Shown piece after piece: positions 1,135-34,024 of a stretch of 64,000 bases of DNA (positions are counted from its first letter, which is position 1; every line of letters begins with the position of its first letter). The stretch lies in assembly GCA_000467715.1 (NCBI GenBank), contig AJFK01000462.1:1-64000 (forward strand), given 5' to 3'. The DNA comes from Hysterium pulicare CBS 123377 (Eukaryota > Ascomycota > Dothideomycetes > Hysteriales > Hysteriaceae). A program made the translations under genes and the position numbers. The notes under the pieces were generated by a model that had not been told where the DNA came from, searched no databases, and saw only the letters and a program-made list of their open reading frames with translations.

Positions 1135-3374
1135 ATGAATAATATAAGTGATCTCGATTGTAAGTCCTCCTCCATGCATCACGCATCTCGTTTCCTGGTA
1201 CTACTGTATCTTATTCTGACTATATAAAAGCTCCTTTTGCTGTCCACAAGGATCATGCACGTAACGAAGCGGATAAAACTAACTCCTCCAAAAATGGAGT
1301 AAGCATCCAGTCTCGAAGAATTAGAGCAGTATCTGGCGCTAATATCTCTTACAGTTCCCAGCTGGAGTAATTCGTGACGACACGGTGAACCAGAATGCAT
1401 CGTCGCAGCAGCTTGCTCTCAAGAACACGACCAATCTACCACCTCGTAGTCGAGATCGTGACCGTTCTAAGTCACCCCTTCGATGTAAAGAAAATGGTAG
1501 TGCAGCTCCACCAAAGTACCGTGATAGGACGCCCGCCGACCCACGTACTCATGCTCGACACCGCGATCATGTACAGCCACTTGATCAACGTTCTCAGGAG
1601 CCGAACTCTTCCGACCGTTTGTCTAACAAAGCTCACCGTCACCAAGATGAGCATATCCGCGCGACTAAAGCCTTCGTCTATAGTGGGACTGAGGAGGGCA
1701 GCCGCGCTACACGCACTCCTCTCAATCGGGATAGCCATCGCTCGTCAAAAGCTGGCCCGACGGATCCTAAGTCGCCACTCAACTCGACTGAAGGTATTTC
1801 CATTGCTTTTATGGCCCTATTTCCTTCAACTGCTAATCACCACTAAAGCTAAAACATCTTCTAAAAACGAGAGGTATATGACAGCTCGTAAGGCAAACAC
1901 TAGTCCTGTCACTACTAGTCCTATCTCTTCCAACTATACCGCTCCAATCATCGCAATAGCCGCTCCAACAGGAGGCTCTGCCAATGACGACGATGATGTT
2001 ATCAGGAGACCTCCCTCTCTTAGCGCATATCGTAACCACAATAAGCGGAGTCTCGAAACAATGTGCGAGGAGCGTCACCTAAAGTATACGGACAACAAGG
2101 GCAAGTCCTTCATTAAAAAAGACTTGATTGAGCTACTTTGGCAAGATGATGGGGAGTTTGAGGCGCGTTCAAGTTATTCGCAGTGGTCCTCCAGCAAATT
2201 GAGGAGAGAGTATATCAAACTCGAGATTGTACCAGCTGCAGGTGCTCAGACCAGTGAGCTTTCTAAAGCAGATCTCCTCAATGGACTAGTAGAGCATCAT
2301 ATCCACACCCGGGGTCCAAACCATCAGAACGGCAGTCTTTCCAAAGCTCAGCCAAAGAAGACGAATGGTCAGCATGCTCCTCTTAAAGCTAGCAAAACTC
2401 TTCCTAAAGCTACTACGCTCCTTTCTCCACAAGAAACTAGGGTAAAAGCAATGAGTGATGACGAGCTCAAAGCCGAAGCACGAGAAGGCAAGGTATTCGC
2501 AGGATTCATCACATTGATGACTCGCTATCAGCTAGAGCATTGGCTCTTGAACAAAGACAAGTATGGAATCGACCATGCAACTGAGTTGTGGCAAGCAGAG
2601 TTTATCTACTCTCAGCCATTCCTTCGCGATTTGACCAAAGAGCAGCTCGCCATGCGAGTCACGTCGCTCAAGAAGAACAAACTTGATTACAATGAATTGA
2701 TAAAGAAGAGCCGAATCAACCTTATCGCGCGTATAGCCCACGCTGAGAAGTTGCAGGAAATGCAGAGGTCAGGCCAAGGGAGAAAAAACAATGACTCTTC
2801 GTCTTCATCTAGCCTGGTAAGGGACAACGAGGTGGCCGAAGCCGAGCATACATCGACAGATGAGGTTGAGGCCACACCGACCTCCGAGCGAATCAACCGC
2901 TCTCCTACCTCATCTGGACATCGACGTCAGCCCGCTGGTGGATCTGTACATCCGCCGAATCGGGTTGTTGCTTCGGGTGCCGTGTCAAAGAGCAAGAAGG
3001 TCAAAGACGCAAAGCTCTCCAGAAGCCAAAATCAGTCGCAGCTTCTAGCGCATGCTATCAAAGGTTCTGAAGATGCTTCTCATCTACCAAAATGGCCTCT
3101 GACCTATCTGGAAAAGGTTAGACATGCTGCTGAGCTCCAAGCAGAGCGTGAAGCTGAAGCAAAACATGTTGCCGAAGAGAGAAAAGCAAAGCAAGCGGAA
3201 GAGACCAAGAAGGTAGCGTCCATTTACGAACAGAAAATGAAGGAGAGTCGTGAGACATATGCCTTCCTTTCTTCCCATCGCATCAAGCGAACACGCGATG
3301 ATGATGACGAGGAGAAGCCAGAGCCCAGCAAGAAGTCGAAGACTTCCAACCAGCACGGTAGCCTCCAGAGGTAA
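1135..3374 (+). CDS. SAP/HeH-repeat nuclear protein A (hypothetical)
   Basis: Exons are proposed at 1135-1159, 1362-1793 and 1849-3374, giving 660 residues. Both introns have GT-AG ends and a GCTAAT branch site, and phases agree. Residues 20-150 are rich in Arg, Ser and Asp, like an SR-type linker. Four helix-extension-helix-like segments follow, at about 217-250, 260-306, 349-395 and 409-455; the second opens with a Y-x-x-W motif and a Leu/Glu/Arg pattern also seen in proteins D and E. About 569-625 is a Glu/Ala/Lys coiled coil, and the C-terminus has a KRTR...KKSK basic signal, so a nuclear location is likely. SAP and HeH folds bind DNA or RNA in known families, but here that is inference from pattern only. 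A second, unspliced frame also runs open from an ATG at 1395 to the same stop, so the N-terminus is uncertain; I prefer the spliced form because its first 150 residues resemble the charged linkers of the paralogues. Confidence 0.7.
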
Positions 3375-4289
3375 ACCGTCTATATGGGCAATAACTCGGA
3401 ATCACAGAGGTCGACTACTATGTTCCGTCCAGCACATTATATCAAAATCGATTCTCGACACCCTCCACCAGCCTCCATCATCCTCCTCACCAAACATCAA
3501 CAACATATTCAACGACCTATGAGGAAATCTTCACATCAAGGCCTTGCGCCTGACACCTGATCTCTCTACGAAATCAATCCTTATCTCTTTCATCGACTAC
3601 CAATCCGAATTTCGTAAAATATCTCTGCTCAACAACATACCACTGAGGCGATCGCCTTCAACATACGAACTCTTTCTTCTTTATGGCCATGGCTATTGCC
3701 TCATCTATTCGATCGGGCCTCCACAACATATGATGAGCACATGGATATCGCTTCCACTTCTTCTTTTCCAGCTACCCTTCTTTCACAACATTGACATCCA
3801 TGGGTAATTCAGAGGAGGAAACCCGTCGGCGCAACGATGCTTTATTTTTCTTTTCTGCGAAAGTACTGTGCTGCGATTCTTGTATTACTAAAAGTAGTGA
3901 CATCGCCTACATGGGTTGGATCGGGATGTTTTTGTTGTGCTTATATTGGGATTTTGGATAGCACGTTCAAGGAAGTGTCTTCGGAAGTTGGATAAGGATT
4001 GTGGTTGGATACTGTTGCGTTTAGTATAAAATTGATAGGGCATCAACTTGGGGTGCAATGCATGAGACACAATATAAGATGTAGAGAGTGAACTCAGAAA
4101 TCGCCAGTATCATCTCATCGCTCATTGAACATCTGTGTTCATTGATCTAACCTCCAAAGCACGCATTGTAACCAAACTACACACCTCCCTCCTGACCCCG
4201 CATCATAGCCTCCTTCAAATACAGCCAGGGCCCTGAACGCATGGCTACACTCTGACATATATAGTTCATTGTAGCTGAACACGCAAATG
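3375..4289. other. intergenic, 3' flanks of two converging genes
   Basis: The stretch lies between the converging genes at 1135-3374 (+) and 4290-5573 (-). It holds only short open frames without recognisable features and is presumably 3' untranslated sequence of both. Confidence 0.6.
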
Positions 4290-5573
4290 CTATTCAAGCT
4301 CCTCCAACCCACGGGGATATTTTTCTACGAGAGATCTCATCTCTTTCTTCGCCCTGAATAAGGTTATTAGAGTCGGTAAGAAAGCTGTATGTATAAACTA
4401 CTCACAGCTCGCGAAATTTAGTCTCGTTGGGGTAGAGCCCCGAGACAAGAAGATCATAGCGCCTGTGAACAGTAAGCGTTCATATTGATGGGTCATCCTC
4501 GATACCGCAAGGCCGCACTCACAGAGCGTATAAAGCATTTCGATCATCCCAATCGCTGTGTGGCTCTGACATGCCCATTACCTTCTGGTATTCTTCTAGA
4601 AACGGACGCCCCATCCGGTACCGTGGAGCTCGCCAACTACCCAAATCTGATTCGTTGTGGCCCCGGTATGAACATGAGTCGAAGATCATGATTTCGCCAG
4701 TGTCAGCATCCGGCATACAATTTCCTGGCCAAAGGTCTGAATGCACAAGACAGGGCTCGATAGAGCGGCCTCCCGTTTCTAAAGGACGTAGCAATCGTGG
4801 AATGACCTTTGTACATAAACAGTCAAAAAGATCTTGCAATTCTTCATCCTTACCGTGTGCCATGTTCTCGAAATTGAACATAGTTTTCATGGCTTGTGTG
4901 AACCACGTCTCCCACGACGTGGACCAAGCATTGTCGTTTGGAACATTTGCGAGATGGGTTGGAACCGCAAACCCGTATTGCCCGTTCGGAGACTTGCCCA
5001 TGCTGTCTTTGTGGACTTTTGCGATTATATTGACGAATGACCTTACGTCTGGAGGCTCGTCAACCATATCATGGAATTCACAGAGATAGAACCATGTGTC
5101 TGGCTCAGTTTTATATTCTCCGAGTGCAATTGGCTTCGGGACATGACCGGAGCAGTAGTTGTAGTAGGCCGACTCAGACTGGAAAGTGCCTTCTATCATG
5201 CGATGGCCGGCTTCGCCTGATTGGGACTACGAGTGAACTGGCATCAGCAGCTGTAGGAGTGTCTAGGGCGCACTCTACACGTACCTTATTGAAGTATCGC
5301 TTGGTACTTCCATCCGGTAAACGGGTATCGATGCGGAGTGTATCGCACCAGGCGCTTGCTCCAGATGGAACGATGGAAAGGAATTCAGTCCCAGGAGGAA
5401 ATGCTTTCTCTGTTAGCCTCGCCAACGGTATGGGTCGCACCCATTCGAAGCGCATGCTCACCGGCAACGACACTTTCATCTAAGTCCTGAATATACACTG
5501 GGTTCGCTTCGCGCTTGCGCTTCAGCTTTGCAGCATATGCTTCGGCGGGATTCGAAGACACGGTCGCGTTCAT
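4290..5573 (-). CDS. ketosamine-3-kinase / APH-fold kinase
   Basis: Five exons on the minus strand: 5573-5462, 5409-5285, 5226-4523, 4462-4406 and 4353-4290. Phases agree and give 353 residues. The sequence fits the fungal fructosamine/ketosamine-3-kinase family (aminoglycoside-phosphotransferase fold). An ATP-site beta region with the G-A-S-A-W turn lies near residues 55-60, the catalytic loop HSDLWPGN at about 241-248 (Asp 243), and the Mg-binding F-D in IFDSCSYRGH near 262. The family usually reads HGD and FDP at these places, so the Ser replacements are mild departures. Characterised members phosphorylate sugar-derived ketosamines on proteins or small molecules; the substrate here cannot be told. 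The C-terminal LRYDL...LYPNETKF segment is conserved and was recovered only by splicing. A diverged relative lies at 7.9-9.0 kb in the opposite orientation. Confidence 0.88.
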
Positions 5574-5700
5574 TGTCCGGCTGTTGGGAAGGCTGAGGCC
5601 TTGTGTTTAAGTGTGAGCATAACGCCGAAGGTGAGCTGAGCTAAAGGCACAGACGGCGCACGGACGAAGAAAGGTCAACCTTTGGAATGCATAGGGCGGC

Positions 5701-7534
5701 ATGCTTGTCTGGACTGGCGCTGTTGAAGATCAACCCCTGGCTTTTGAATTCAATGAAGACGAGAGCATACTCATGGCCGTCACAAGAGGCAACCAGATGG
5801 TTTTCTGGGATTCTGCCTCGGGAAAGGAGGTGAACGTTTCTACCTTTTCCGATTTTGACGAAGAAGATATGGTGCCCTATCACTATCAGCGACCGCCAAT
5901 ACATGCCGCCTTTTCATCGGGTCTGGATCTCCTTGGAGTTGCTTTTCGGACACGTCCTGTGAGCTTTTGGGAAACAAACACGAGCACTTTCGCGGGCCAG
6001 TATCACAAGTTAGGAGCCATTTATCCGGAACCTTACATTCATGCATTCATCTTCAATCCAGTGCCCGAAATATGTCTGGCTGCAGTTGCGTTTCAAGATG
6101 AAGATATCGCTGTATTTGATCCCTGGTCTCATACTACACATGCAATGGCCCACTCATACTCTTCTTGCCTCTCTGCCTCCCCGAGCGGAACCATTCCTGC
6201 CAGTGGGAGTGCCGAAGGTGTTATCAAGCTTTTCGACTCTGAGACCCTAACCTTTCTGTACCAGATCAATTCCCAAGAGGAGGGCATCCGCTCCCTATCA
6301 TTCAGCATGAACAGCCTACGGTTCTACGATGTTCGCGGAGATCACTGTAATGTCTGGGAGCCTTCCGTGTTAGTAAGGCGTGTCAACTCTAGTGACGATT
6401 CCAGTGTCGATCAAAGCGACAGGGTTACGGATGATCCACATTATGCAACAAATCGCGTTCTGAATGAGGATGAAGAGATCACAGCTATCGCAGCGCATCA
6501 TGATGGTGATTTTGTATTCTGCGGATTCGAAAATGGCTCGGTAAATATTTATTCAACCGCGCACGGAAAGCCCGTGCAAAGTCCCTTCAAGCACTCTCAT
6601 AATATTGCCATCCTTCATTTGAATTGGGATGAACGAGAGAATCGTCTGGTGAGTGCGGACCGCACCGGACATATCCTCATTCATCGACTCTCGCGGGTGA
6701 AGGGTGCACAGCAGCCGTTTGCAATTGACGAAAAGTTGTTGGACAACCGGTCATCCTCAGCCGTTCGACAAATCCTCCTCGACGTACACGGCAGGAAAAT
6801 GCTTCTTGTAACCAACGAGAGGATAGAATTATGGGACCTGGATAATGTCCTCATGGTCAACGAAGACGCGGCCGAAGACACTGACCAGGCCTTGCTCTGT
6901 ACGACGCACCCCCAGGACTCTGTCAAGCTCCTCCTCATATCCGGAGAGCTGGAAGTGAGAACTTACCAAAGGGCGACACTCCAACAGGAAGGGAAGCCGC
7001 AAACATTGTCCTTAGGTAAAAGTTCCTCACCAGGCCTCATAGTGTCTCAATCTGACGAACTCCTCACGAGGCCGAAATATATGCACTATTTTTGCTAGCT
7101 CTCAAGACAAAGGGCTAGGCTCGAGCTTATGCGTATACCCAAGCCAAGCATTCTCGTTAGACCAAGATGCTATCTCCCCAGTAGCATGCTAAAACGACCT
7201 CGCTAATACTATCAAAACGTTTGTCGGCTGCTTTAAATCACAGCTTGTCTTTCTCGACCACAGCGACTGGATCTGTCCTCTCAACATCGAGAACTTGCGT
7301 CAAAACACAACTTATACGAAACACTTCTTCATACCTCAACAGTGGCAGGGCAGTGTGAACAGTATGCTGATGCTGGTCACGAAACGAGGTGGTGTTGTTC
7401 TGGTCAGTATGGACGAACTGGCTATTTTCCAAGGCGAATTGAATTTCGAGGAGTCTGTGAATGTTTCGAATACTGCGCTGCCTTCTTTGATTAGACGTTC
7501 GTCCTTGAAAAAGAGTATATGCAGTCCTTCCTAG
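5701..7534 (+). pseudogene. C-terminal WD40 remnant of a STAND/NLR-type protein
   Basis: An open frame of 465 codons at 5701-7098 encodes WD40-like blades. It includes the stretch ending C-N-V-W-E-P-S-V-L-V-R that is typical of the C-terminal sensor half of large fungal NACHT/WD40 proteins. The usual end of that protein (QLVFLDHSDWIC, then HFFIPQQW, then a final VLVSMDELAIF block) continues to 7534, but in another frame: a one-base shift occurs near 7085 and a stop lies at 7190. No HET, NACHT or NB-ARC part exists upstream; the kinase gene on the other strand begins only 127 bp away. The 5' two thirds of the ancestral gene are therefore missing and the rest is decaying. Members of this family act in self/non-self recognition and programmed cell death; this copy is most likely non-functional, although the 465-codon part could still be expressed. 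Confidence 0.75.
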
Positions 7535-7877: not shown

Positions 7878-8993
7878 TGAATTGGGACGTTGATCATGCC
7901 TCAAAGCTCTACCATGCGGTGCCAAAGTTGTTACCGCTCAAGGGCATGGAGCGAGCAATTGGAACAAAACTGGATATATTGAGTTTCTTGACAAAGACTC
8001 CAGTACAAAGCGATGGTTCTTAAAGGTAAGTGGTACTTCAATTCTTTGATTATCGGATAACCGCAAATAGATGGCTTTTGGAGAGCGCGGCGGTGCTGTG
8101 GTGCATGGAGAGTACGAATCTATGCTCGCAATATGTGCAGTATCTCCTTCACTTGCACCGCATCCTATATGTTGGGGTCCTTGCTCTGAATCTGATAGCT
8201 ACTTCTTTCTGTTGGGATTCCATAACTTGAAGACCGGCATCCCTTCCATTCCCGAATTTGTGAAGGCGGTGGCCAAGTTGCATGAAGAAAGCGACTCTCC
8301 CACAGGCAAGTTTAGCTTCCATGTTACGACTTATAACGGCACTCTCGAGCAGGATAATACCTGGACGGGTTCGTGGGAAAGGTTCTTCGCGAAAGGTACG
8401 GTGCGACTGCTCGCATTAGAGGGAGCAGCAAGAGGTCCAAGTGAAGACCTACGCCATCTATCAATGATTCTTCTTGAAAGATTCATTCCACGGCTTTTGC
8501 GACCACTGGAGACTCATGGCCGGATTGTCAAGCCCAGCCTACTTCATGGCGATCTTTGGATCGGTAATGTGGCTACAAACAAGACAACGCAGCAACCCAT
8601 GATATTCGATTTCTCGGCTTATTATGGTCATCACGAATGTGAGTCTAGCATGTGCTCGGCGCTGATTCAAGTGTTATTTTCTCACTAACTGCAATAACTC
8701 AGACGAGCTCAGTACTCTCAGACCGATGAACAGCCAGTGGAGCCGAGATGGTATCGAGAATTATTATAAATGCGTCCCAAAAGATAAGCCAGAGGAAGAT
8801 TGGGATGCTCGTAACGCCTTGTACGCCCTGTATGCACACATTTTGCATTTTCTTGTAAGGCTATTCTCTTCCGACACTGAACAGTCGTACATATATAATT
8901 GACTCCGCACTGTATCCCGATATCCGGAAATATCGGCAAACGTATGCGTCTCTATCCTTTTACGGTGGTATCGGCTTTCCGGTGCATATTTGA
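7878..8993 (+). pseudogene. second ketosamine-3-kinase copy, probable 5' frameshift
   Basis: Exons 8071-8638, 8703-8829 and 8885-8993 join in phase through GT-AG introns. They give a kinase body with HGDLWIGN (catalytic loop), IFDFSAYYGHHE and the family C-terminus ALYAL-RTYIIDSALYPDIRKYRQ. An upstream exon ends at 8025 and carries H-G-A-S-N-W-N-K-T (ATP-site turn), preceded in frame by a LKALPCGAKVV segment. The likely start ATG at 7878 (MNWDVDHA) reads into that segment only after a one-base shift near 7895-7905. So either the copy is frameshifted, or it starts elsewhere (for instance at the ATG at 8071, which would lose the ATP-site region). The catalytic Asp is intact, unlike in a fully dead copy. 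It is in inverted orientation to the kinase at 4.3-5.6 kb. Confidence 0.7.
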
Positions 8994-9735: not shown

Positions 9736-9908
9736 GGTAAAGACGAAAGCTATAAACACGATGCAGTATTGGAGTAGGCTGAGTCTAGGTACCTTTTGTA
9801 CTTCATCACTTGACGTAAGCTGCGGCGGGACCAGGGTACCTATATAAGTGTGACGAGGCAACGCTCAATGATTCTAACTTTCTTAGCTTCCATCACCACG
9901 ACTTCGAG

Positions 9909-19076: not shown

Positions 19077-21926
19077 ATGTCCGACAACAACAACTCCGAT
19101 CAGCCCTCAAAACGCCAACCGGATCAAGGCTCTGCTATCGACAGTTTGTTCGAAGACAGCGATACCGGTTCAAACGCGTCCACAGCCGCGCCAGCACCAC
19201 CAGCCGCAACGCCCGCTCCAGCCAGCATGGTATCGGCGGGATCTAAAAAGCGTAAGGAACTTCCACAGGAAGACGCCGATCAGATTACAGTTCGTCAGCC
19301 TGCGAAGAAGCAAAAGGGACCTGATTCGGCACGTCCCACACCAAGAGAGTCTCGTCCGTCCGCGCCCAAAAACCCGCTCATCAAAAAGATGGTGAACGAA
19401 GGCAAGGCCAAGAAGAAGGCCAAAGCGCAGACATCCTCCGCTACAACAAGCGCTGCAGGCCCAACACCGAGCGATGTAGCTAGTACGACTCCAACAGAGA
19501 CACCTGTGGCGGCTCCTCAGATGCAGGCGGCAAGGCAACGCGAGGCTGCGGAAGAGGCTAGCATATCCCCAGTTTACGACCCTTATGAGCTGATTATCGA
19601 AGATTCCGCAGCCAATGATCCACCTCAAGCACAGGATACTTCGATTTCCGCGGCTCCAGCGAACGGCTCTCAGGCACTCAGTCGTCCAAAGCCTGCTTCC
19701 AAGGGAAAGCCAGCCGACAGAAAAGATCAAACCTCAAGGCCAGGAAAGATTCGGATAATCGTCGGCCCTCCTAAAAAGCCTGCCAACTCTTCCAAGATCC
19801 CTCTGAGCGCACCATTGAGAGTGATCGGTTTTCGTCATAAAGGCAAAAGCACTTGGATGAAGGAAACTCTCCCCACTCTCAAGGGCGAGTTCAAGAAACG
19901 CGGATTCTCTGATGCGGAAATCGATAATATCGGCACGACTAAGGGTCCGCTCAGCGAATACTTGGAGAAGGACAGTCAACAGATCCTAGAATCTGGTGTA
20001 GTTCCTCTATGGCTTCACAGATTAAACGCAAACTTGCCTCCTCCACCGCGAAATGCCAGCACATCAACGCAGCCTTGCAGCACAGCGACACAGCCTGCCA
20101 GTACTTCGGCCCAACCGCCAGCCGCCCGGACGCAAATTCCTATATCTCAGGGATTAGCCGATGCATTGGCGCCAGTGCCCACTGCCCCGACCAAAGTTGC
20201 CAATAGCCAGCGGCAGACAGCCGTACGAAACCCCAACGTCGGCGATGAAGTTTCCCGTGAGAGGCCACGGTCGTCGGCGATCGTATCGATGGCGGCAGCG
20301 GACGCAGCGGCCAGGGCAAGACTCGGATTGCCTCCTAGGCATCCAGGGGGAGCAAATTCTGCCACCCAAGCCGCGAACTCTGGTCAAAATGCGCCTCAAA
20401 GTGCTCACCAAAGCCCACCCGCAAGTGCTCCGCCTCAGAGTGGACAAAATCCCTCGCAGAGCACTCAGGCAGCTCCAGGGGCTTCGGGGTATCCAGACGA
20501 CTCTAGTTATTCTGATGAGAATGCCAGACTCCCCAACGTTCCGAAAAACGCCAAGGAATTTAAGAAGCCAGAAGCCGCGAACTTCGACAGCGACGAGGAT
20601 GGCGATGCTGCAAATGATACCGCAAAGAAAGACTCCAAGACAGGAGCTAATAATCATGCGGATAACCATAGTGCTGCAAACGCTCCCATCGCCAAAAAGG
20701 GCGCGAAAGGACCTCGGAAGTGGAAAGGGATAGCCAGGGATTATACCACTTGGCGGGTCAAACACTCGATTGCTGATAAGCTGGCCGAGCTCGAGTTATA
20801 CGGCTGGCTCGGCAAGTTCGGCACCAACCCCACCAAAGAGCAGAATGATGAAATCTGCGAACTTTTGGCCGCTCTAGAAGCCCACCGAAGAGATCACAAT
20901 GAGATTCTTCGGGAGCCAACACTTCCACCGGGCTACATTTCCCCGGTTCCCCGGGCTCGACCTGCATCCTCGAAGGCGAAAAAGGATAATCCACGTCTGC
21001 GAGTGTCTGTCGAAGTGGAAGATTTCGATCGTGAAGGAGTAAATCCTTGGTTGGAGGGCTCTCCAGTTGGTGAGTCCGAAGTAGAGGGGGAACGTCCGCT
21101 CAAACGTCAAAGGCCGGACCCAACAATGTACGATGAAGTTGCGCCGGGCTCAGATTTCGCATACATTCTGAACCCCAGGCACCTTCGTTTGATTTCCGGC
21201 CCTCCTCCAAGCGCACCGCTCGCCCCGAAGCCTCCCCCAAAGGTAGGAGTCCAGAGAGAAGAGATGCCTGGCAGTGGCGGAAGGACTCTCAATCCCAGGC
21301 GTCCTGGCTACTCCGAAGATCTGCAGGCGCAGTGGGAAGAACTCCCTAGCCCACTCGGAAAGAAGCTAAAACGCAAGTTTAAACAGCTTTCCGACGAAGA
21401 ATCAGCCGACTACGAAGCCAGGTTGAGAGCGAAGTTTGGACATCCCGAGTTACTCACTGTTCCAGAAGAACTCCCTGGCAGGAAACGCAAGCGCGCCTTT
21501 ATCTATCGTGCGCATAAAGATCACCACTATACCGGAAAGGTACGGCATATGTATGGATTTCCAGGTGATCGAATCTGCCTCCAGGATGAATTTGGAATCG
21601 GATACCACAGCCTTCGAGAGATGGCTCAGAATGCGTCCGAAGTGCTCGCCATCTTGAGGGACGGGCCTGAGGCTCAAACGGGTGCTGTTGCTGTACGATC
21701 CCCTACAGAAGAGGACTTGGACCAGGATCAGGAAATGTCAGATCCTGAAGATTCGGGCGATGACACAGAGATGATTGAGGAAGATGTCGAGGTGGAGGGA
21801 GAACTCGATAACGAGGACGAAAAAGTCTCAGAGATAGGCAGCGATATCACTGAGACTGAGGGCCCCGAGGTACCAGATGGCGGATGGGGTGGTGCCGACG
21901 AGAGTGAGGAGAGTGAGGAGGAGTAA
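19077..21926 (+). CDS. nuclear charged protein B, paralogue of C (hypothetical)
   Basis: Single exon of 949 residues if begun at the ATG at 19077 (context ACACAATGTCC, like paralogue C). The frame is open 42 codons further up, but that part looks like leader. Residues 1-240 are disordered, Pro/Ala/Lys-rich, with KKRK and KKQK basic signals. At about 258-297 is a compact block with S-T-W-M-K, then L-K-x-E-F-K-K-R-G, matching a block in C. A long Gln/Pro/Ser region follows. A second compact block near 557-581 has W-R-V-K-H-S-I-A-D-K-L and Y-G-W-L-G-K-F, again matching C. The tail is very acidic (runs of Glu/Asp/Ser). The layout suggests a nuclear scaffold or chromatin-associated protein; no catalytic motif is visible. 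I recognise no named family. Confidence 0.8.
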   Translation: MSDNNNSDQPSKRQPDQGSAIDSLFEDSDTGSNASTAAPAPPAATPAPASMVSAGSKKRKELPQEDADQITVRQPAKKQKGPDSARPTPRESRPSAPKNPLIKKMVNEGKAKKKAKAQTSSATTSAAGPTPSDVASTTPTETPVAAPQMQAARQREAAEEASISPVYDPYELIIEDSAANDPPQAQDTSISAAPANGSQALSRPKPASKGKPADRKDQTSRPGKIRIIVGPPKKPANSSKIPLSAPLRVIGFRHKGKSTWMKETLPTLKGEFKKRGFSDAEIDNIGTTKGPLSEYLEKDSQQILESGVVPLWLHRLNANLPPPPRNASTSTQPCSTATQPASTSAQPPAARTQIPISQGLADALAPVPTAPTKVANSQRQTAVRNPNVGDEVSRERPRSSAIVSMAAADAAARARLGLPPRHPGGANSATQAANSGQNAPQSAHQSPPASAPPQSGQNPSQSTQAAPGASGYPDDSSYSDENARLPNVPKNAKEFKKPEAANFDSDEDGDAANDTAKKDSKTGANNHADNHSAANAPIAKKGAKGPRKWKGIARDYTTWRVKHSIADKLAELELYGWLGKFGTNPTKEQNDEICELLAALEAHRRDHNEILREPTLPPGYISPVPRARPASSKAKKDNPRLRVSVEVEDFDREGVNPWLEGSPVGESEVEGERPLKRQRPDPTMYDEVAPGSDFAYILNPRHLRLISGPPPSAPLAPKPPPKVGVQREEMPGSGGRTLNPRRPGYSEDLQAQWEELPSPLGKKLKRKFKQLSDEESADYEARLRAKFGHPELLTVPEELPGRKRKRAFIYRAHKDHHYTGKVRHMYGFPGDRICLQDEFGIGYHSLREMAQNASEVLAILRDGPEAQTGAVAVRSPTEEDLDQDQEMSDPEDSGDDTEMIEEDVEVEGELDNEDEKVSEIGSDITETEGPEVPDGGWGGADESEESEEE

Positions 21927-23575: not shown

Positions 23576-26404
23576 ATGTCTCAAGACAGCAATTCGAGCC
23601 ACGGATCTCGTTCACCATCACCAGGTGCTAGTCCTGCACTCCCGTCAGCTCCAACTGGCCGCAATGCAGGTTTGCCTGTCACCAACCAGGTCTTAAGAAA
23701 TACACAGCGCGAGTCTGTAAGAGACCAGGGTGCAGAGGTCGATACAAACATGGCTACGGCATCCAACAAGCGAAAGAGGGACGACAGCGAAGAGCCAGCC
23801 AACAAACCAGTACGATCCAATCCGCAGCCACCGAAAAAGCGGCCACGGCAAAAGCAACTCGTGGGCAATTTAGGAAATGGGGAGAACGTACGCGAAGCTA
23901 CAGAGGCACAGCCTCTTAAGCCACTGAAGTCCAAGCAACAGAAGAAGTCTCAGCCGGAGCTCCCTTTTCCGGTAAGTGTTTCTGCATCTCATGCTACGGG
24001 GGACGCAAGGATGACTGACTCCTCCCTACAGAACCTTCCCAGTCTTGAAGATGATGTGATCCAGACGGGACATCAGGAAGCTACTTCTCGTTCCGATCGC
24101 CCGGCCACTGCGGGTTCTTCAAAAGTTTCGAAATTGATTGTTCATGATGCGGCCTCCAAAGGAAACGCAAAATCGGTCAAGGGAAAGCAGAAAAAAGCCG
24201 CAGACTCTGTACCAAAGACTCAGAAGCCATCCGCAGGGTCTTCTTCTAAAACCCTAAGAAAGCTCCAGTATATCAAGACGGATGGGAGCTATTATACTCG
24301 AGAAGCGAGCACGTGGAAGAAGGACAACCGAGCGTTCCTTGACGCAGAACTGCGGAAGCGCGGCCATGACCCCGAGTCACATGGCTTCAAAAGTTTGAAT
24401 GCTATGGAACTAGGGGAGAGTTTGCAGGCCGAAGATAAAGCGATTGAACAAGCAGGGGAACCTTATCCAGACTGGGTTTATACCCACAATCGTGACTTTG
24501 TGGAAGCAAAGAAAGCGAAGTCTGCACAGAGGAAAGAGGCCAAGGCAAACGTCCCTCAATTGAAGAAAGGTGGGCAAACCCTCAATGAGGATGAGCAAGT
24601 CCCTTCCAACGAAGACAATCCTGAGGAAAAGGCTGCCTCTGATGCCTCTGGCGAGGACAGTGACCCAGAGTCTTCGGAAAGGACTGAACCTAGAATCATG
24701 GACCAGTCTGCAATAACATCCTTCTCTGATGCTATCGCCGATGCTCATCGCCGTCGTGGGATCCATGTGCCCCGCAGCTTGAGGCCCGAGTCTACAACCG
24801 GGCCTGCTGTTGAAGACGGTACTCTCAATGAGGGCGCAGGGGATAGAGAAGGGCGTGCTGCTGAAGGTAGCCACCTACATGCCTCAACGCTGGACCCATC
24901 TTGGCCAACCAGCAATGCTCCTAGCGACCCAAATGATCCCGATGACTCGGATGATGAGGGTGACTCCGATCAAGGGAAGCAGGGGGATGATGGAAAGGAT
25001 AGGAAGAATGGCAAAGACCAAGACAAAAAGAAGAACGATGCTGGCGGCTCTTCTGACCAAGGAGAGGAAGATGTGGATGAACATGAACACGAGTATGAGG
25101 CCGAAGGAGATGACGAGGAGGATGAGGAAGACAATGCCGAAGAAATTGAGGCCAACGAAGAGGACTTGCCCTGGCCAAACTGGAAGAAAAGGAGTGAGCT
25201 GACGTGGGAGAAAAAGCATAGCAAGGCGGACAAACTAAAAGCCATTGCTCAGTACGGGGGCAGTCACTTGTTCAACAAGTTCTCCAACGGTGGCCACATG
25301 TCCAGGTGGCTGGAACGCAAAGACCTCATCCGTTGCGAGCCAGAGCTAGGTTTGTCTGAACCGGAAGACCCTCCATTACCTTCAGGTCCCAGAAAACGAG
25401 GACTCGCAGCCGATTCTACGGGTAGCCGGCCACACAAACGCAGAAGGACATCCGTGGAATCGGAGACTCCCGATCAACACATAACCGATTCCTCACTACC
25501 TCCCGTCGAGGGTGAAGATAGCTCTTCAGACTCCACCATGACGGACGTAGAAGACTACATTGGTTTCGGAAATTGGTCTGATGATGAACTCTTTGTGGAA
25601 GATGAACATCAGATCAGGAGCGGTAGTCAGCCACTCTCCATGAATAAAGCCATCATGGAGATATTCGAAAGAACTATGGGTCGACGAAAAGAGTCAGGCG
25701 ATGGTTCCAAAGAAAGCGATGGCCATGATGAGGACGCCGAGATGACGGACGCCGACTCCAATGCCACGTTTGATAGCAACGAAACGCTCGACGACGTTGT
25801 TTATGATATTCCAGCCCGAACCACGTACTACCTAAGCTTGGAGGACGACGAGCTCATCACTGTTGGCCGTCAACGTAATCTAGCAATCATTGCAGATGAC
25901 GTCGACAATGAAGACCAATATCTCCATGAGTATGTGCAAGAGCATGTGGTAATAGGCGCAGACGAACCTCTCGACGAAGAAGCGACACGGCTGTACGTCG
26001 AGCACATCAGGACTCTATATGACTCTCGAGAGAAGATCGCAAGCAGACTTGCTTGGCAAGACGCTGGGACGGCTCGTCACAAAGTTTTAAAGCGATACGA
26101 CTACAAGACCGAAGCCGACATGGAGCCTCAGGATGAGGAATTGGTCCGGAGGATGTTCAAAGCTCGAAGGAATGCCTGGCTTGCCGATGAAGATCCAGAT
26201 TTGATCCAGTGGGAGGACCTTGAGCGTGCGGTTGCAAATGAGGATCCTGGGTGGACTAACGAAGCTGGCAATGCTGGTGACAAGACTGAGAGCGGCGGTG
26301 AGGATGAAATTGAGAGCGATAGTGCTAGCCAAAATAAAGATGCCAACGAGGGTCTAGATGATGGCGAGGATGACAGTGGTATTGAATGGGACGAGATGCT
26401 TTAG
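23576..26404 (+). CDS. nuclear charged protein C, paralogue of B (hypothetical)
   Basis: 942 residues if unspliced. ATG 23576 is chosen over the in-frame ATG at 23414 because of its context (ACAATGTC) and the TATA box at 23431. Order of parts: a disordered basic N-terminus with KKRPRQK; a compact block at about 239-283 with R-E-A-S-T-W-K-K and A-E-L-R-K-R-G; a long acidic Ser/Asp/Lys/Glu region; a second block at about 543-569 with W-E-K-K-H-S-K-A-D-K-L and Y-G-G...L-F-N-K-F; and a Glu/Asp-rich C-terminus. Both blocks stand at nearly the same positions as in protein B, so the two are diverged duplicates. A 60-nt stretch at 23972-24031 has a perfect GTAAGT donor and CCTACAG acceptor, has no stop and is a multiple of three, so it may be an intron or an optional one. 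Function unknown; a nuclear role is inferred. Confidence 0.82.
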   Translation: MSQDSNSSHGSRSPSPGASPALPSAPTGRNAGLPVTNQVLRNTQRESVRDQGAEVDTNMATASNKRKRDDSEEPANKPVRSNPQPPKKRPRQKQLVGNLGNGENVREATEAQPLKPLKSKQQKKSQPELPFPVSVSASHATGDARMTDSSLQNLPSLEDDVIQTGHQEATSRSDRPATAGSSKVSKLIVHDAASKGNAKSVKGKQKKAADSVPKTQKPSAGSSSKTLRKLQYIKTDGSYYTREASTWKKDNRAFLDAELRKRGHDPESHGFKSLNAMELGESLQAEDKAIEQAGEPYPDWVYTHNRDFVEAKKAKSAQRKEAKANVPQLKKGGQTLNEDEQVPSNEDNPEEKAASDASGEDSDPESSERTEPRIMDQSAITSFSDAIADAHRRRGIHVPRSLRPESTTGPAVEDGTLNEGAGDREGRAAEGSHLHASTLDPSWPTSNAPSDPNDPDDSDDEGDSDQGKQGDDGKDRKNGKDQDKKKNDAGGSSDQGEEDVDEHEHEYEAEGDDEEDEEDNAEEIEANEEDLPWPNWKKRSELTWEKKHSKADKLKAIAQYGGSHLFNKFSNGGHMSRWLERKDLIRCEPELGLSEPEDPPLPSGPRKRGLAADSTGSRPHKRRRTSVESETPDQHITDSSLPPVEGEDSSSDSTMTDVEDYIGFGNWSDDELFVEDEHQIRSGSQPLSMNKAIMEIFERTMGRRKESGDGSKESDGHDEDAEMTDADSNATFDSNETLDDVVYDIPARTTYYLSLEDDELITVGRQRNLAIIADDVDNEDQYLHEYVQEHVVIGADEPLDEEATRLYVEHIRTLYDSREKIASRLAWQDAGTARHKVLKRYDYKTEADMEPQDEELVRRMFKARRNAWLADEDPDLIQWEDLERAVANEDPGWTNEAGNAGDKTESGGEDEIESDSASQNKDANEGLDDGEDDSGIEWDEML

Positions 26405-27442: not shown

Positions 27443-28603
27443 ATGGCTTCTTTCAATCGATCCCGTACCGGTAAAGCCGCCGAATCTAATGAGCCCATCC
27501 GCGAACCAAATCAACCTCTCCATCCAAAATCGTCCCTCAAGAGAAGGTCACCTTCAAACGATGAGCATTCAGAGTCAGAGAAACCAACAGAGACTACCAC
27601 TACTATCTCTAAACTCCAGAAAACCAGCAAACGACAAGATGTATCAGCAGCAAAGCAAGAAGAAAGTAGGGGTGTCTTTCTAAGGGTGGTGATTCCACAG
27701 GAGGAGACTAGACCTACCCGCACCCGCACCGCACGAGCTCGTACGACTGTTCAGCCTTCATCCCAAGCCAGAATCCAAGCACGACTACAGCATCCCCCTC
27801 CATCTGTTCATGAAATCCAGTTCTCTAAGCCCCTTCAACTCCTACGTCATTATCCTAGCCAAGCAACCGGTCCTCCTCTATTACCAGCTCCACAGAATCC
27901 TTCTGCCCGGGTCCAGCAGCTCAGAACTAGTCATCCAGCCACAAACTACAATGCCTTCACAGGCCCTCAGTCGCGGGATGAGCCGCCACAAGCTCAGGAG
28001 AATTGGGCGATCCTCCAGTCAGATGAAGCTCAGTATCAATACAGCATTGCCTTCGGGCTCAACATTGACCCTCACGTGCTCTCCGCCTTGGACTTCGAGC
28101 GCTGGAGAGAGCTGCAGGACAAGGCAGAAGAATTCAAGGTTCAGTGGGAAGCCAGAAACCCGTACCTAAGTGGGAAATCTGCTGGCGCATTGGAGGTAGA
28201 GGAAGAGGTGGAGAAAGATCCAGTTTCCCAGGAACCACAATCCGAGCCTCGTCCACCAACTGTCTCTCCATTTACTCCAACCACTGCAAATGCCGAAGCG
28301 CTTCCTCCAGCCGACCCCAATCCACCTCCGGGAAACCAGTCGAAGCCAGTTCGCGCACGCAACGCCACCAGAAACAAGAAGTCTAAGCAGAAGTCTGGGA
28401 CTGTGGAGGGTGGAAAAGTGAATAAGAGGAAAGGGGCTAAAGTGGGCTTGGGAAAGATTGCTAAAGGCAATAAAGCCTACAATGCGTGGATGCGGCTGAG
28501 AAAAGATGAGTTGCTGGAAGAGGCACGCAGCCGCGGGATACTGGACTTGAGTGAAGCCGACCTTAAGAAAAGGATCGTTGGTGCCATAATGGCACAAGGC
28601 TGA
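27443..28603 (+). CDS. SAP-motif nuclear protein D (hypothetical)
   Basis: Single exon of 386 residues from the ATG at 27443; the frame is open 32 codons further up, but those read as leader sequence. The first two thirds are disordered, with Arg/Thr repeats (T-R-T-R-T-A-R-A-R) and Pro/Gln runs. A Lys/Asn/Arg stretch (about 320-345) probably directs it to the nucleus. The last 41 residues form the clearest SAP-like motif of the cluster: Y-N-A-W, then L-R-K-D-E-L-L-E-E-A-R-S-R-G, a short loop, and L-K-K-R-I-V-G-A-I. SAP motifs (about 35 residues, two helices) bind scaffold-attachment DNA in known proteins. Its Y-x-x-W opening recurs in A and E. It stands alone with its own promoter, 1.0 kb after C. 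Confidence 0.8.
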   Translation: MASFNRSRTGKAAESNEPIREPNQPLHPKSSLKRRSPSNDEHSESEKPTETTTTISKLQKTSKRQDVSAAKQEESRGVFLRVVIPQEETRPTRTRTARARTTVQPSSQARIQARLQHPPPSVHEIQFSKPLQLLRHYPSQATGPPLLPAPQNPSARVQQLRTSHPATNYNAFTGPQSRDEPPQAQENWAILQSDEAQYQYSIAFGLNIDPHVLSALDFERWRELQDKAEEFKVQWEARNPYLSGKSAGALEVEEEVEKDPVSQEPQSEPRPPTVSPFTPTTANAEALPPADPNPPPGNQSKPVRARNATRNKKSKQKSGTVEGGKVNKRKGAKVGLGKIAKGNKAYNAWMRLRKDELLEEARSRGILDLSEADLKKRIVGAIMAQG

Positions 28604-29708
28604 AGAGGATTGGCCTGTGGGAAGAGACTAGAAAGGCCCGTAGAGGGTGGTGACAGGCTTTTAGATTGTTTTTGAATGCATGCTTGGATTTGTATGGGTA
28701 GGAAAATGGTTACTAGGTTAGCCTGTAGGATGACAAGGGGATGTTGTAATACTTAGTTAAGATTAGTTTGCTTGGGCTTGGTATGCCTCATGAAAAGTAC
28801 TATATCGACTTCAGAGAATTGCTTTAGCTTGTTCTAAACAGTAGCTAGACTACTTATCTCTAGAAAATGGATAGATGATTACCCTTGTTTACATCATGTG
28901 GCTCTGCTTATGTTTGTGTATTAAAGCAATCTGACCACCGTGACTATACAGTTTGACCTTGGTAATATGTATTAAAGTGCTACGTTTAATATCTAACAAG
29001 TTTAAACCTAGTTACTTCCTCTTAAGGTAGAGGTAAAATACTTTAAGATAATCCTCTCTTTTTCTACTCCATTCCAAAACACGTTCTTGTAGTAGGATAT
29101 TTAGCCTGCACGCACCCACGTGGCAACTTACTTCAGCATACTTCCCCAAGCGCGAATGACATCGGTGCTACGTACTCCTTCGGCATTTGATGAACTTTAC
29201 GCATGGTGGCTTATGCTCTTGGCCTAGGCCGCCTAGCTCCTTAGAGAGTTTTATACCTTTTACTTTCTACTCTTATATATACTTAAGCTCAGATTCTTAT
29301 ATACTTTCTGACTCTTCATGCATCTCTTTTACCATTATGACCTTGTTTCACAATGTGAACTCATCCAGATTCTATACTCCAGAATTAAGGGGTCAAGGAA
29401 GACATCAGTGATAATTCCAGCCTGTATGGAACACTACAGGGGAATTGCACTATGCGGTCACAATGCTAGGAACCAGAAACTCATATTGGGCACTGACCGG
29501 AAGTACCAAGAAGTGAAAGCGTCTGCTCTCGATTGTGTGAAAACGAATCACTGGATCCGAAGTCCGTAAGTACAAGGCTCGACTCTCTGCTCCCAGCGTA
29601 CTTTTCGAACACCAACATACTCCACTACTCGAAATCAACCCATCACCTCGAGTTAAACCAATACTTCGACTACTTCAAAACACCATCGTTTTCCATCCTA
29701 CAAATCAA
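28604..29708. other. AT-rich intergenic region
   Basis: 1.1 kb of A/T-rich sequence with TATATATA near 29273 and short frames without features. It may contain the promoter of protein E. A pyrimidine/CAA-rich leader precedes the ATG at 29709. Confidence 0.5.
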
Positions 29709-31208
29709 ATGGCTCCATCTACGAACACACCAACTGGCCGGGCAGCTTCTGTCCCACCCAATAATCGCCGAGTAATGCATTTGAAAGAAACTTTCAAGGG
29801 TAGAGCAGTGTCCGAACCACCCACTTCAAACGGGATAGCTTCTTCCCTTGCTCGGAAGCCCCAGCCTGCAGTAAGTCTCATGATTGTAGCCCGCCGCGTG
29901 GACAACTCAACTAACGCGACCAAGCGCGATGCACATCCAAACCCTACGCTCACAAAACCTACCAAGCGTAGAGCCGAAGAGGATGAAGACCCATCCGATA
30001 CTCTTGAAGGACTCACGGATTCTGCACCGCCAGCCAAGCGGAAGCTAATCGCCCGCAAACCATCCGCCAAAATCCTCGCCATGAACGAGGGTGCTCTTCC
30101 GGGAGCCGTGGTTCCAGAGGAAGTAAAACAACCAGAGCCCGATGCACTTCTAAAACCGACACTCACCAAGGCTACTAAGCGTAGGCGTGATGATAAAAAA
30201 GAGCTTTCTGCACCTCTGGACGGATCCTCAGATGCTTCCCAGTCTCCTAAGCGTAAGCTGGTCTCTCTGAAACCGTCTGCCGAAATTCTCATGATGAATG
30301 ATGGTGCTATTCCTGATACCCTGGTTCCAGATGAGGATAAACAACCACACGAAGTCTCCCCGCCCCTGTCTCCTGAGTCACCTCCAGCTGTAGTCGATCA
30401 GCCCCGACCGCTAAAACTGAAATTCACATATAAGAACAAGGGGCGTGACATTACTACGGCGAGGGCTCAGGAGGCGAAGCGGAGGGAACAGACCCGAGGA
30501 CTGGTCCAATCCAAGGCTGCAACAAGGCTTCAGAAAGAAGCATCTACCGCAATCAACCCAACGTCTGACTCTGAAGAGAAGAAGGTCCCAAATATCAAGA
30601 CCTATATGCAGTGGACCCATGCAAAATTAGTTAAGGAAGCCAATAGTCGTGGTTTTTCCTATATCACTGCCAAGTCTGGTCATTCAAAGGGGGTCATTGC
30701 TATGCTTCTGCACACGGACAACAAGATCCCACAACTGAAGGTCGGCTTTAGAGGGCGACAAAGGATCTACGAGCGACTCGATAAGAGCCAGCTCGCAAAG
30801 ATTCTGAGAGATAATGGGGAGCCCGTGGTTGAGCTCAGGACCGATATCACCGACTATATGAAGCAAGGACGCTCTAAGGAGTGGATCTTAGAGGTACGGG
30901 AAGCGACCAATACCCAAGAGAAATTGGTGGATCGATGCATAGAATTGCAGGATGCAGACATATCTGTAGTCATTGGATCGGTGGAATTTCGACTCTGGGA
31001 CGAGAAAGGCTTCAGCGAGGAGGTTGGCTCGGTCTGGCTCTGGGAGAATTCCGAGGATCAAGAGATGACGGGCGCGGAGGAGAACATTGGCTCAGAAGAC
31101 AACGGAAATGGCTATGAAGGAAGGGACAATGTAGGAAGGGTCGCGATCATCCAGGAGAAGCTCCGGGCGTTGAACAAGGAGCTCAATGATATCTCCCCCC
31201 ACCGTTGA
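29709..31208 (+). CDS. SAP/HeH-motif nuclear protein E with internal tandem repeat (hypothetical)
   Basis: 499 residues from the ATG at 29709. Residues 79-212 are a gapless tandem duplication of a 71-residue unit: each copy has T-K-x-T-K-R-R, then K-R-K-L, K-P-S-A-x-I-L and N-x-G-A, ending V-P-x-E/D-x-K-Q-P. Residues about 298-338 form a SAP/HeH-like segment opening Y-M-Q-W and continuing K-L-V-K-E-A-N-S-R-G-F. A second, Y-E-R-L-D-K-S-Q-L-A-K-I-L-R-D-N-G, lies near 353-390. The tail is acidic. A possible 54-nt in-frame intron (29871-29924; GTAAGT, ACTAAC, AAG end) would remove 18 residues. The TKRR and KRKL groups suggest nuclear import. No enzyme motif is seen; a DNA- or RNA-binding role is inferred from the SAP-like segments. 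Confidence 0.8.
   Translation: MAPSTNTPTGRAASVPPNNRRVMHLKETFKGRAVSEPPTSNGIASSLARKPQPAVSLMIVARRVDNSTNATKRDAHPNPTLTKPTKRRAEEDEDPSDTLEGLTDSAPPAKRKLIARKPSAKILAMNEGALPGAVVPEEVKQPEPDALLKPTLTKATKRRRDDKKELSAPLDGSSDASQSPKRKLVSLKPSAEILMMNDGAIPDTLVPDEDKQPHEVSPPLSPESPPAVVDQPRPLKLKFTYKNKGRDITTARAQEAKRREQTRGLVQSKAATRLQKEASTAINPTSDSEEKKVPNIKTYMQWTHAKLVKEANSRGFSYITAKSGHSKGVIAMLLHTDNKIPQLKVGFRGRQRIYERLDKSQLAKILRDNGEPVVELRTDITDYMKQGRSKEWILEVREATNTQEKLVDRCIELQDADISVVIGSVEFRLWDEKGFSEEVGSVWLWENSEDQEMTGAEENIGSEDNGNGYEGRDNVGRVAIIQEKLRALNKELNDISPHR
29943..30347 (+). repeat. 213-bp tandem repeat within protein E gene
   Basis: Two copies with a period of 71 codons, roughly 29943-30134 and 30156-30347 for the conserved cores. 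Alignment is gapless at the protein level and diverged at the base level, so the duplication is not very recent. Confidence 0.8.
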
Positions 31209-32795
31209 CTCTGACAGAGCAGAAGATGATTTATAGACTACGGACCTAGCAATTCGCTTTATCAAAGCATATTACTGTTGCAAGGATACAAATCAATAAT
31301 AGTTTCACACTCAATCGATTATAATGTTGCAACAACGTGATGAAGCCGATGCCTATAGCCAAGGAATCCGGAGGCCCTTACTAATCAAGCCTACAATAGT
31401 ACTGCTCATGAAGCCGTGCCCGTGTTATCCACCCAACCAAGCATATCCGTTGTTTATTTCTCCATCTAAACTTTATCCGGCTCAAGAGTCTCGCGTGTCA
31501 TCTGCAACTTGGTATTTGATGGACCCAGATGCGTTTTTACATCCTCCATGCATTCATAGCCTCATCTATACTTTCTCTCTTCAATTCGACGATATGCAGC
31601 CTTCAGTAACCGGAGCCACCATGCGCACTACGTTAAGCAACTCAGCGCCTCCGACAAAAGTAACGGCGTCGCTAGTAGCGAGGTACGTTAGACAGTGTTC
31701 CTGAATGATTGTGGTGGGTATACTGACCGGCTCTTCCCAAGGAGACCAACCAGTTAAGAGCGTTAGCTTCCATTTCTGGCGTTCAGACACCCCTCATGTT
31801 TTGTTCTCCGTCAGATACCAGACTTTTTGCCACAATTTTCTTCTTTAGATGTCTGCCAACGTTAGTGCAAGTGGACTGCAAAGCGTCACAAGGCTCCTAT
31901 TGTACCTTGCTAAGCTGAGGATGGTTGGCGGGAATAACTCTCTCCTTTACTGGATGCGGCAGCGTACTCGTCCACGATCACTCCAAACGGCGACGAGCAT
32001 ACGACAAGTACTTCTCGCTGCATGCCTGAACAATACATTTAATTGCAGAAGTTTTTGCCGGGTGGACCACTGAAGCTTGAACAATGACAACTTCGGTCAC
32101 CGGAGACAGGTAGCAACACCAGCGGTGATCCACTTAGGTACCCAGACCTGATTTATCCGACGCGCACCTAGGTACCATCGAAGCATTTCAGACAATGGTT
32201 TGACGGCCATGCCCTGGAGAAGGCGCAGCGGACTTAACGCGTGCTTGTTGGTTGCTCTTTCCGATCTCAGCAATCACGTTTGATCTTCAAATGAGCACCG
32301 TCATACCTACCTCCAAGACTCACATCGCGCAACACCGGGACAACACTGGGACAGCGTCAGCAGGATCATTCTTCTTGTTTCAGAGGTTATCAGAACGTTC
32401 TTACAGCATCTTATGATCTCCCAGCGAATCAGCAAATCCCGAACCTCGATCGGAAAGCGACGACGACATTAGACAACGGGAACTACCAGTGAGTAATTCA
32501 CAGTCTTTTGGAATTCAGCAGGTGGTGAATCTCCCATCTCTCAAAGACTGAAAACGGGGACAGCAACCTCTCTGCACATGACGACCATCAAAGCCCGTAT
32601 GCCAACGTCAACTCCCACCATCACGCAGTTCAGCTCCGGAAAAACCATCACCTCCGCTGACTCATTACGCGATGCCGTCCATTCAGTTTCCCCTCCAATA
32701 TCTATATAAACCTGTAACCTCCTCTCGCTGAACCTGACGACCACACCTTACAGCCAAACCCACCACCCAACAACCACCATCGGAGCTCCTCCACC
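31209..32795. other. intergenic region, no supported gene
   Basis: 1.6 kb. Frames at 31324-31704 and 31849-32073 have no family features. The last 100 bp hold the TATA box and C/A-rich leader of protein F. Confidence 0.5.
32703..32710 (+). promoter_or_regulatory. TATA box of protein F
   Basis: TATATAAA lies about 90 bp before the ATG and is followed by a CCACCAAC-rich leader. Confidence 0.5.
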
Positions 32796-34024
32796 ATGGA
32801 CTCAGATACCGAATACCGCCCTGGTGGTATTCCTGCCGCCGAGATCGCGAAAATCAAACCGAAGCTGCAGAAGCGCAAGGAAGGCGAGCGTGAACACTCT
32901 CCAGCCCGCCGCCCCATCAAGAAATTGAAAGGACAAGACGGAAAATATGACCCTCCACTATCGACGTCACCAGCACGATCAACAGACGACCCGCTTGGTG
33001 CACGTTCCGGTAAAATGTCTCGCGGTCCTGCTGTGGGCTCCTCTGCTATGGTAGACTCTGAATCGAGCAGTGGTGACGAAATTCATTTTGACAAGCGCAA
33101 GCAGGCTGAAGCGGAGAAAGCTCGACGACAAATACGTGCCGAACGAAAGCGTGCGGAAATGAATCGAGAGGATCGCTATGCGAAGAAAGCGAAGATTGTT
33201 GCCCAAGAGAACGAAGGCAGATGGGTGGAGACGAGTTACGGAGTTCGAGAAGCGAGCACGTGGAAGAAGAAAGAACGAAAACCAAGGAAGAAACAGTTCA
33301 ATCATGAGGATCAAAAACTTTCGAGCGATGAGTCGGACGATGGTCAGAACGGTAAGTTTGGATTAAGAACCTTAAAGTGGAAATTACGGCACACGAGAGA
33401 TATGAAGATGCTAATGTGAATGCTACCCAGAGCCCATCTCTCAATACCCACCCGGACGAAATCGTAGGAACGCAATCAGCGAGCCGAGGCCTGAACTCGA
33501 CAACGAGGACAACGAGCGAAAGTCGAAGAACAACTCGTTGGGTCCACAGGGCTATGTTGTTGACAGTGATTTGTTGGATGACAGGAAGAAAGGTAAGTTC
33601 CACAACAATGGCATTGGGAACTGGACATATGAGATGTGAGATGCTAATGTGTTGCAGAGTCCACCGTTCCCAACTCTGGACGAACAGGTCGAAACGGAAT
33701 CAGTAAGGCGAGGCTTGAGCGCGATGACAAACTTCCGAGCAGCAAAGAAGCCAAGACCCTGAAGGAAATTATCAAGTAAGTAACTCAACATTTTTTAACC
33801 AAAGCTGGAACGGAGTGGTGCTGATTTCTTCTTCTCTTCCTCAAGCGACCAGACGACAAAACCTAAATTTCTGAAAAAGAATGCTGAAGACTTCCAATCG
33901 GGTGGTAAGTAGACATCCCTTCCTAGTCACAATACATAAAATCGCCAGCTAATTTTCCGGCCGAATAGACCCGGTTCCAAAGAAGAAAGTCTTGAAGCGG
34001 GGCACTGTTAAGGAGAAAAAGTAA
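32796..34024 (+). CDS. basic nuclear protein F with the REASTWKK block (hypothetical)
   Basis: Five exons (32796-33351, 33431-33592, 33658-33775, 33846-33904, 33969-34024) joined in phase through GTAAGT introns give 316 residues. An N-terminal Lys/Arg-rich, disordered part leads into a Lys/Arg/Glu helix (about 90-125). The block S-Y-G-V-R-E-A-S-T-W-K-K at about 147-158 is shared with protein C, even at the DNA level (25 identical bases). The rest is disordered and the C-terminus is very basic (P-K-K-K-V-L-K-R, K-E-K-K). No SAP motif is visible, so F is a partial relative of C rather than a full paralogue. Unlike B-E it is rich in introns. Function unknown; nuclear location is likely from the basic signals. 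Confidence 0.8.

Follow-up and report, generated by a model that had tools for sequence, protein, structure and literature searches.

The first 64,000 nucleotides of contig AJFK01000462.1 of the ascomycete Hysterium pulicare CBS 123377 (assembly GCA_000467715.1), referred to here as the window, carry six long, charged coding frames on the forward strand, named A to F. The window is the start of a contig of 220,789 bases (C353) in a genome of 37.2 Mb in 596 contigs, and this contig starts 1.1 kb ahead of gene A. A preliminary description, made from the sequence alone, had grouped the six frames as a cluster of SAP/HeH-type nuclear proteins. The gene models are the following.

1135-3374, forward strand: gene A, 685 amino acids, with exons 1135-1159, 1231-1298, 1355-1793 and 1849-3374 and GT-AG introns joining open frames
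19077-21926, forward strand: gene B, 949 amino acids, single open frame
23576-26404, forward strand: gene C, 942 amino acids, single open frame
27443-28603, forward strand: gene D, 386 amino acids, single open frame
29709-31208, forward strand: gene E, 499 amino acids, single open frame
32796-34024, forward strand: gene F, five exons

The expectation that all genes except F are single-exon or intron-poor is correct for B, C, D and E and for the five exons of F, but A has four exons. The proteins are charged and, as had been proposed, appear mostly disordered, with disorder-promoting residues making up 75-82% of A-F according to a composition count that does not involve a disorder predictor.

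Gene A has relatives outside the window. A genome search with its last exon retrieved X3 (E 2.6e-20) and X5 (E 3.9e-15), two of five genes, X1 to X5, that lie on the same strand of contig C352 (18,871 bases) and whose main frames are open across 1.3-2.2 kb. BLAST links these genes with A and with each other (A-X3, 4e-22; A-X5, 2e-16; X3-X4, 2e-10; X2-X4, 0.002; X2-X3, 0.011), and X1 is tied in more weakly, by phmmer matches of A to the second part of X1 (E 4e-4 to 9e-4). Identity to A over the region of the units described below is 29% for X3, 25% for X4 and 36% for X5, and 26, 24 and 29% over longer stretches. Counting A, the six array genes spread over C352 and C353 are, by their sequences, a tandem family. 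The proposal of a local expansion with strong divergence therefore holds for A, and the genes on C352, with X3-X5 only 25-36% identical to A, make this expansion larger than could be seen from the window. The low identity inside the array suggests that it is old. C352 terminates in a T run. A DNA polymerase alpha-like gene, recognized by eye, is broken in two, with one part closing C353 and the other opening C354. This suggests that the contigs are numbered as they lie in the genome, and C352 thus likely adjoins C353.

Pfam at E values up to 1 gave nothing for B-F, and the single family listed for A (E 0.3) is weak and irrelevant, the scans covering the last exon of A, the first exon of F and the main exon of X5. 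In searches of the genome itself, D, E and the first exon of F had no further match, and the only further place for C was found at E 0.86. Such copy counts are lower bounds, because the search with X4 returned X4 alone although X4 and X3 align at E 2e-10; the search with X2 likewise returned X2 alone. Viral contigs were scanned with the array alignment and no relative was confirmed in them. A simple pattern search found KR-x-R-D/E strings, which we take to be of the nuclear-import-signal (nuclear localization signal, NLS) type, in A, C, E, X1, X2 and X3.

The array proteins are built from short units of 37-49 residues, of which A has four.

2019-2150, forward strand: A unit 1, SAP-like; 7.1 bits to a hidden Markov model (HMM) of SAP motifs from the same genome, reached by 0 of 200 shuffles; AlphaFold2 helices H11-20/H35-55
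2172-2300, forward strand: A unit 2, SAP-like, with a Y-x-x-W opening; unit-2 profile against SAP at 95.4% (hhalign); AlphaFold2 helices H60-69/H85-99
2442-2555, forward strand: A unit 3, helix-loop-helix; AlphaFold2 helices H149-158/H171-184; unit-3 profile against SAP at 41% (hhalign), which is marginal
2622-2747, forward strand: A unit 4, helix-loop-helix; AlphaFold2 helices H209-219/H234-247; unit-4 profile against SAP at 1%

Like A, X3 was assigned units 1-4. X4 has units 1, 2 and 4, and X5 has units 3 and 4, the unit HMMs giving no match to unit 1 or 2 in X5. Two unit 1-2 pairs are present in X2, and X1 combines units 1-2 with two unit 3-4 pairs, an internal repeat that BLAST detects as well (E 4e-8) and whose second pair spans an inferred intron (C352, 6043-6100). 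Since the unit limits were set by eye and the unit HMMs match their own source sequences by construction, these counts per protein are to be read as our assignment.

To compare the units with SAP, an array profile of 11 units (A4, comprising six copies of unit 1 and five of unit 2, with X1 unit 2 and all units 3 and 4 left out) was aligned to a reference profile of eight SAP motifs that the same genome encodes at seven other loci. hhalign matched the two profiles at 96.9% (E 1.6e-10); none of 100 column-shuffled profiles reached this score, the reversed profile gave 0.5%, and dropping any one array protein kept the match at 96.2-97.0%. Used as an HMM, the eight SAP motifs score A at 7.1, X1 at 7.1 and X3 at 2.0 bits, each above all 200 local shuffles. 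AlphaFold2, applied to A and three relatives, gave four helix-loop-helix units grouped about a linker of low confidence, with a mean predicted local distance difference test score (pLDDT) of 77 and a predicted template modelling score (pTM) of 0.43. In this model, the units of A are predicted to take a helix-extended loop-helix fold.

A unit of the same type is a candidate in four of the other genes in the window.

30600-30725, forward strand: E SAP-like unit, with a Y-x-x-W opening; leave-one-out HMM 9.4 bits, 0 of 500 shuffles; blind window 24.2
28475-28600, forward strand: D C-terminal unit, possibly SAP-like; blind window 18.4; leave-one-out HMM, 3 of 500 shuffles
19845-19982, forward strand: B block 1, probably SAP-like, with W-x7-L-x2-E-x3-RG; joint B and C block 1 profile matched to the array; AlphaFold2 helices H21-36/H53-68
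24305-24442, forward strand: C block 1, probably a SAP-like unit; blind window 17.8, above all background

Leave-one-out HMMs, each judged against 500 local shuffles, gave 9.4 bits for E (0/500), 2.5 bits for D (3/500) and 1.0 bits for B (3/500). With the array profile, and with the leftover profile containing the targets left out, E had the highest score of any sequence not in the array, at 5.3 bits; the best of 401 background open reading frames (ORFs) reached 3.9. The third comparison was blind to the hand-set limits in B-F: windows of 46 residues were slid over B-F and 15 other frames (four of which are pieces of two genes) and scored with profile A4. The best windows reached 24.2 in E, 18.4 in D, 17.8 in C, 15.0 in B and 8.5 in F, with a maximum of 15.14 among the 560 background windows. 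E, D and C thus stand above the entire background, and B falls at its edge. The best windows of E, D and C are the tryptophan-containing unit, and those of all four proteins (E, D, C and B) hold the SAP-like segment or block 1 that had already been marked in the preliminary description.

B and C block 1 align with each other in BLAST at E 0.02, seen only with the low-complexity filter on (whole proteins, phmmer E 0.068). Their joint profile matches the array units at 88.6% (hhalign; 0 of 100 shuffles), compared with 11.8% for B and 43.1% for C taken singly. In a hand alignment, D, B and C have the W-x7-L-x2-E-x3-RG spacing in common, and E and array unit 2 have W-x4-L-x2-E. Because the best window of C is above background and the B window aligns with C, block 1 of both proteins is probably of the SAP-like unit type. 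Altogether, membership of E in the unit family has good support from the sequence comparisons, and the family probably extends to D and to block 1 of B and C. Of the SAP/HeH segments first proposed for A, D and E, those of A (by profile and model) and E therefore stand, and that of D is plausible: its best window exceeds all 560 background windows and 3 of 500 shuffles score as well, but it lies inside the ORF background. B and C do share two blocks as described, but block 1 is probably not a separate element, given its likeness to the array unit. For F, neither leave-one-out HMMs nor blind windows found a unit, and the idea of one unit common to all six genes was given up for this gene (65 of 500 shuffles as good; blind window 8.5). 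F had been described as sharing one of the B/C blocks with C, of which only a ten-residue stretch is left:

33234-33263, forward strand: F peptide in common with C, 8 of 10 residues identical (7 in the best of 20 local shuffles)

Several results weigh against a SAP-type reading of these genes. The Pfam SAP family (PF02037) was not found in the scanned frames of A-F or X1-X5 at E values up to 1 or 5, and none of these proteins passes its curated cut-off. Just three of the 11 single units exceed 80% against the SAP profile in hhalign (A unit 2 by itself gives 1.3%), the HMM of eight SAP motifs does not lift X2, X4, X5 or B-F above shuffles, and the sequence of unit 4 does not match SAP (1%). The leave-one-out HMMs did not find the C unit (78 of 500 shuffles as good), and D (-0.6 bits) falls inside the background of 401 ORFs. 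Compared with the canonical SAP profile in hhalign, E reaches 2.5%, D 4.6% and B/C block 1 23.8%; as they hardly match it, their SAP link runs via the array. Searches of PDB sequences with the array gave no match below E 0.1, the best for the array profile being Mdm38 (E 0.21) and 1jjr, Ku70 (E 0.28). Foldseek comparison of the A and B models with the PDB yielded nothing below E 1, a null result that is uninformative because this method handles small helical units poorly. Furthermore, the KR-x-R-D/E pattern was not found in B, D, F, X4 and X5.

Some of these observations would also suit an explanation in which the units arose by convergence as helical hairpins that mediate protein-protein contacts, with no true SAP kinship. 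The missing Pfam and PDB matches, the unlikeness of unit 4 to SAP and the lack of a direct SAP match in E, D and B/C block 1 favor such convergence, whereas the match of units 1-2 at E 1.6e-10, where shuffled and reversed controls fail, and the fact that 0 of 560 background windows reach the E, D or C scores against the array profile argue against it. We regard convergence as quite improbable.

Besides block 1, B and C share a second module of about 80-90 amino acids, block 2.

20709-20957, forward strand: B block 2, 59% identity (E 4.2e-28) to a Myb-like gene on contig C309, with a weaker copy in C
25187-25294, forward strand: C block 2, scored at 8.8 bits by a profile built from B block 2 and the C309 copy (best background ORF, 2.9)

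The B and C copies also align with BLAST (E 3e-4), and C block 2 is a diverged copy of B block 2 at the sequence level. This module is not SAP-like (B block 2 in hhalign, 0.5% to the array and 2.4% to SAP). AlphaFold2 places helices in both blocks of B, although the overall model is poor (mean pLDDT 51). B block 2 recurs at 57-59% identity in a C309 gene with Myb-like repeats, one of which is just below the Pfam cut-off (23.4 vs 24.4 bits). This gene (4539-5732) is a member of a second local cluster, of Myb/SANT-like genes, located at 201-7913 of C309:106500-116499; of three cluster genes scanned, one passes the Pfam Myb cut-off, and no Pfam Myb match exists in A-F. Between B block 2 and the C309 copy, identities at the three codon positions are 75, 80 and 41%, with a nonsynonymous divergence (dN) of 0.25-0.30 and a synonymous divergence (dS) that is undefined (NG86) or 2.0 (YN00), which points to an old copy under purifying selection.

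The gaps between the genes are mildly AT-rich, as had been noted, with a GC content of 0.41-0.49 compared to 0.49-0.55 in the genes. A bias of the type left by repeat-induced point mutation (RIP) is not seen in the gaps beyond the level of the housekeeping half of the window (TpA/ApT 0.83 vs 0.71; (CpA+TpG)/(ApC+GpT) 1.19 vs 1.22). The suggestion that each gene has its own TATA box applies to A, B, C and F, which have TATAWA within 300 nt upstream, and not to D and E; the motif also occurs in 44 of 150 gap windows.

These data bear on the possibility that the array was shaped by genetic conflict, as a drive element or as chromatin factors against transposons, under positive selection. A tandem, low-identity array with a varying number of units and the additional local cluster on C309, whose genes have Myb-like domains, are what such a history might leave. 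The sole pair measured, i.e., B block 2 and its C309 copy, looks purifying, however, the gaps lack RIP-type bias beyond the housekeeping half, and X1-X5 keep main frames that stay open for 1.3-2.2 kb, and we consider conflict as the shaping force very unlikely.

Regarding the surroundings, the A-B gap of 15.7 kb holds genes for two fructosamine kinases, a WD40 protein, an MFS transporter, an O-methyltransferase and an FAD/BBE oxidase. These unrelated genes set A apart from B-F, so that the cluster is not continuous: the six charged frames lie within 33 kb as originally described, but A is separated from the others and membership of F is unsupported. The fructosamine kinase genes (4522-5199, reverse strand; 8071-8685, forward strand) are on opposite strands, 2.9 kb apart. 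From about 34 kb onward, the window resembles ordinary housekeeping DNA. Pfam confirms genes for TIMELESS/Tof1 and for an Aquarius helicase there; the other neighbors were identified by eye only. Contig C351 (1-10000), numbered ahead of the array contig, carries big polyketide-synthase-like frames, likewise by eye.

Taking the profile comparisons and structure models together, the locus is best explained, with somewhat better than even confidence, as a diverged, modular, local family of SAP/HeH-like proteins that are probably nuclear and probably bind nucleic acids. Each protein would combine long, charged, disordered-looking stretches with short SAP/HeH-type units of helix-extended-loop-helix layout, the number of units ranging from one to about six. 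The units may touch DNA, perhaps AT-rich DNA, weakly, with contacts adding up along one protein, which would make each protein a multivalent chromatin binder; basic disordered tails could serve nuclear import and extra binding. The family would have grown by old tandem duplication, with gain and loss of units within genes, and B and C would pair the SAP-like unit with block 2, a module also used by the Myb-like gene cluster.

Alternatively, the proteins could act mainly on RNA, as Tho1-type factors of messenger ribonucleoproteins (mRNPs) or of transcription-coupled export, and the SAP-like units would then make accessory contacts with chromatin. Among solved structures, the own-genome SAP profile matches Tho1 best, followed by E1B-AP5/hnRNPUL1, MKL1 and Hcc-1/SARNP, a result that concerns the canonical SAP genes and not the array. 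N-terminal RS/RD/RE dipeptides are somewhat above shuffles in A (P 0.048) and X4 (P 0.076), while the other nine of 11 N-terminal stretches show no excess (P 0.23-0.98); with just one of 11 stretches at P below 0.05, an RS-domain reading of the N-termini was dropped. Pfam, moreover, listed no RNA-binding domain in the scanned frames of A-F and X1-X5. A role mainly on RNA therefore seems unlikely to us.

Where nuclear-type proteins lack Pfam domains, fungal genomes have a blind spot, and the gene neighborhood analyzed here can be traced for the most part to one recognizable, very diverged, DNA-binding-type unit that varies in number. Searches of the open-licence literature turned up no description of such an array, which does not prove that it is unpublished. 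If the chromatin-binding reading is true, the locus is a tractable case of how new fungal chromatin factors arise via tandem duplication and the gain and loss of units, and similar proteins can be sought elsewhere with the unit profile. A bolder and quite improbable extension is that this is a new fungal multi-unit SAP/HeH-like family with zinc-finger-like gain and loss of units, i.e., lineage-specific chromatin factors that trade modules with the Myb-like cluster and may answer genome conflict.

SAP domain proteins usually have one SAP motif, which matches Pfam. The array resembles such proteins (Tho1/SARNP, hnRNPU-like proteins, the Ku70 C-terminus) in having a short helix-extended loop-helix unit in a charged protein; the first helix is rich in Leu/Arg, and the second has a Lys-then-Leu pattern. 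It differs from them in the number of diverged units, which reaches about six per protein, in its longer loops, in the Y-x-x-W that opens unit 2 and in the lack of a Pfam match. No Pfam match to the C-terminal RNA-binding domain of the Tho1/CIP29 family was obtained in the scanned frames of A-F and X1-X5. The canonical SAP genes of the same genome, seven matches that served as the reference profile, have a unit of like type; unlike the array members, they pass the Pfam SAP cut-off, and they sit on seven other contigs, none of them C352 or C353. In one of them, on C356, two SAP motifs in tandem are visible by eye, and the Pfam search gave one. The C309 cluster is similar to the present locus as a group of neighboring genes with DNA-binding-type domains, one of which has block 2 in common with B, but its domains are Myb-like and not SAP-like. 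In Tho1, the helices of the SAP domain span residues 9-19 and 27-42 (PMC4909252), a layout like that of the A units, whose loop is longer.

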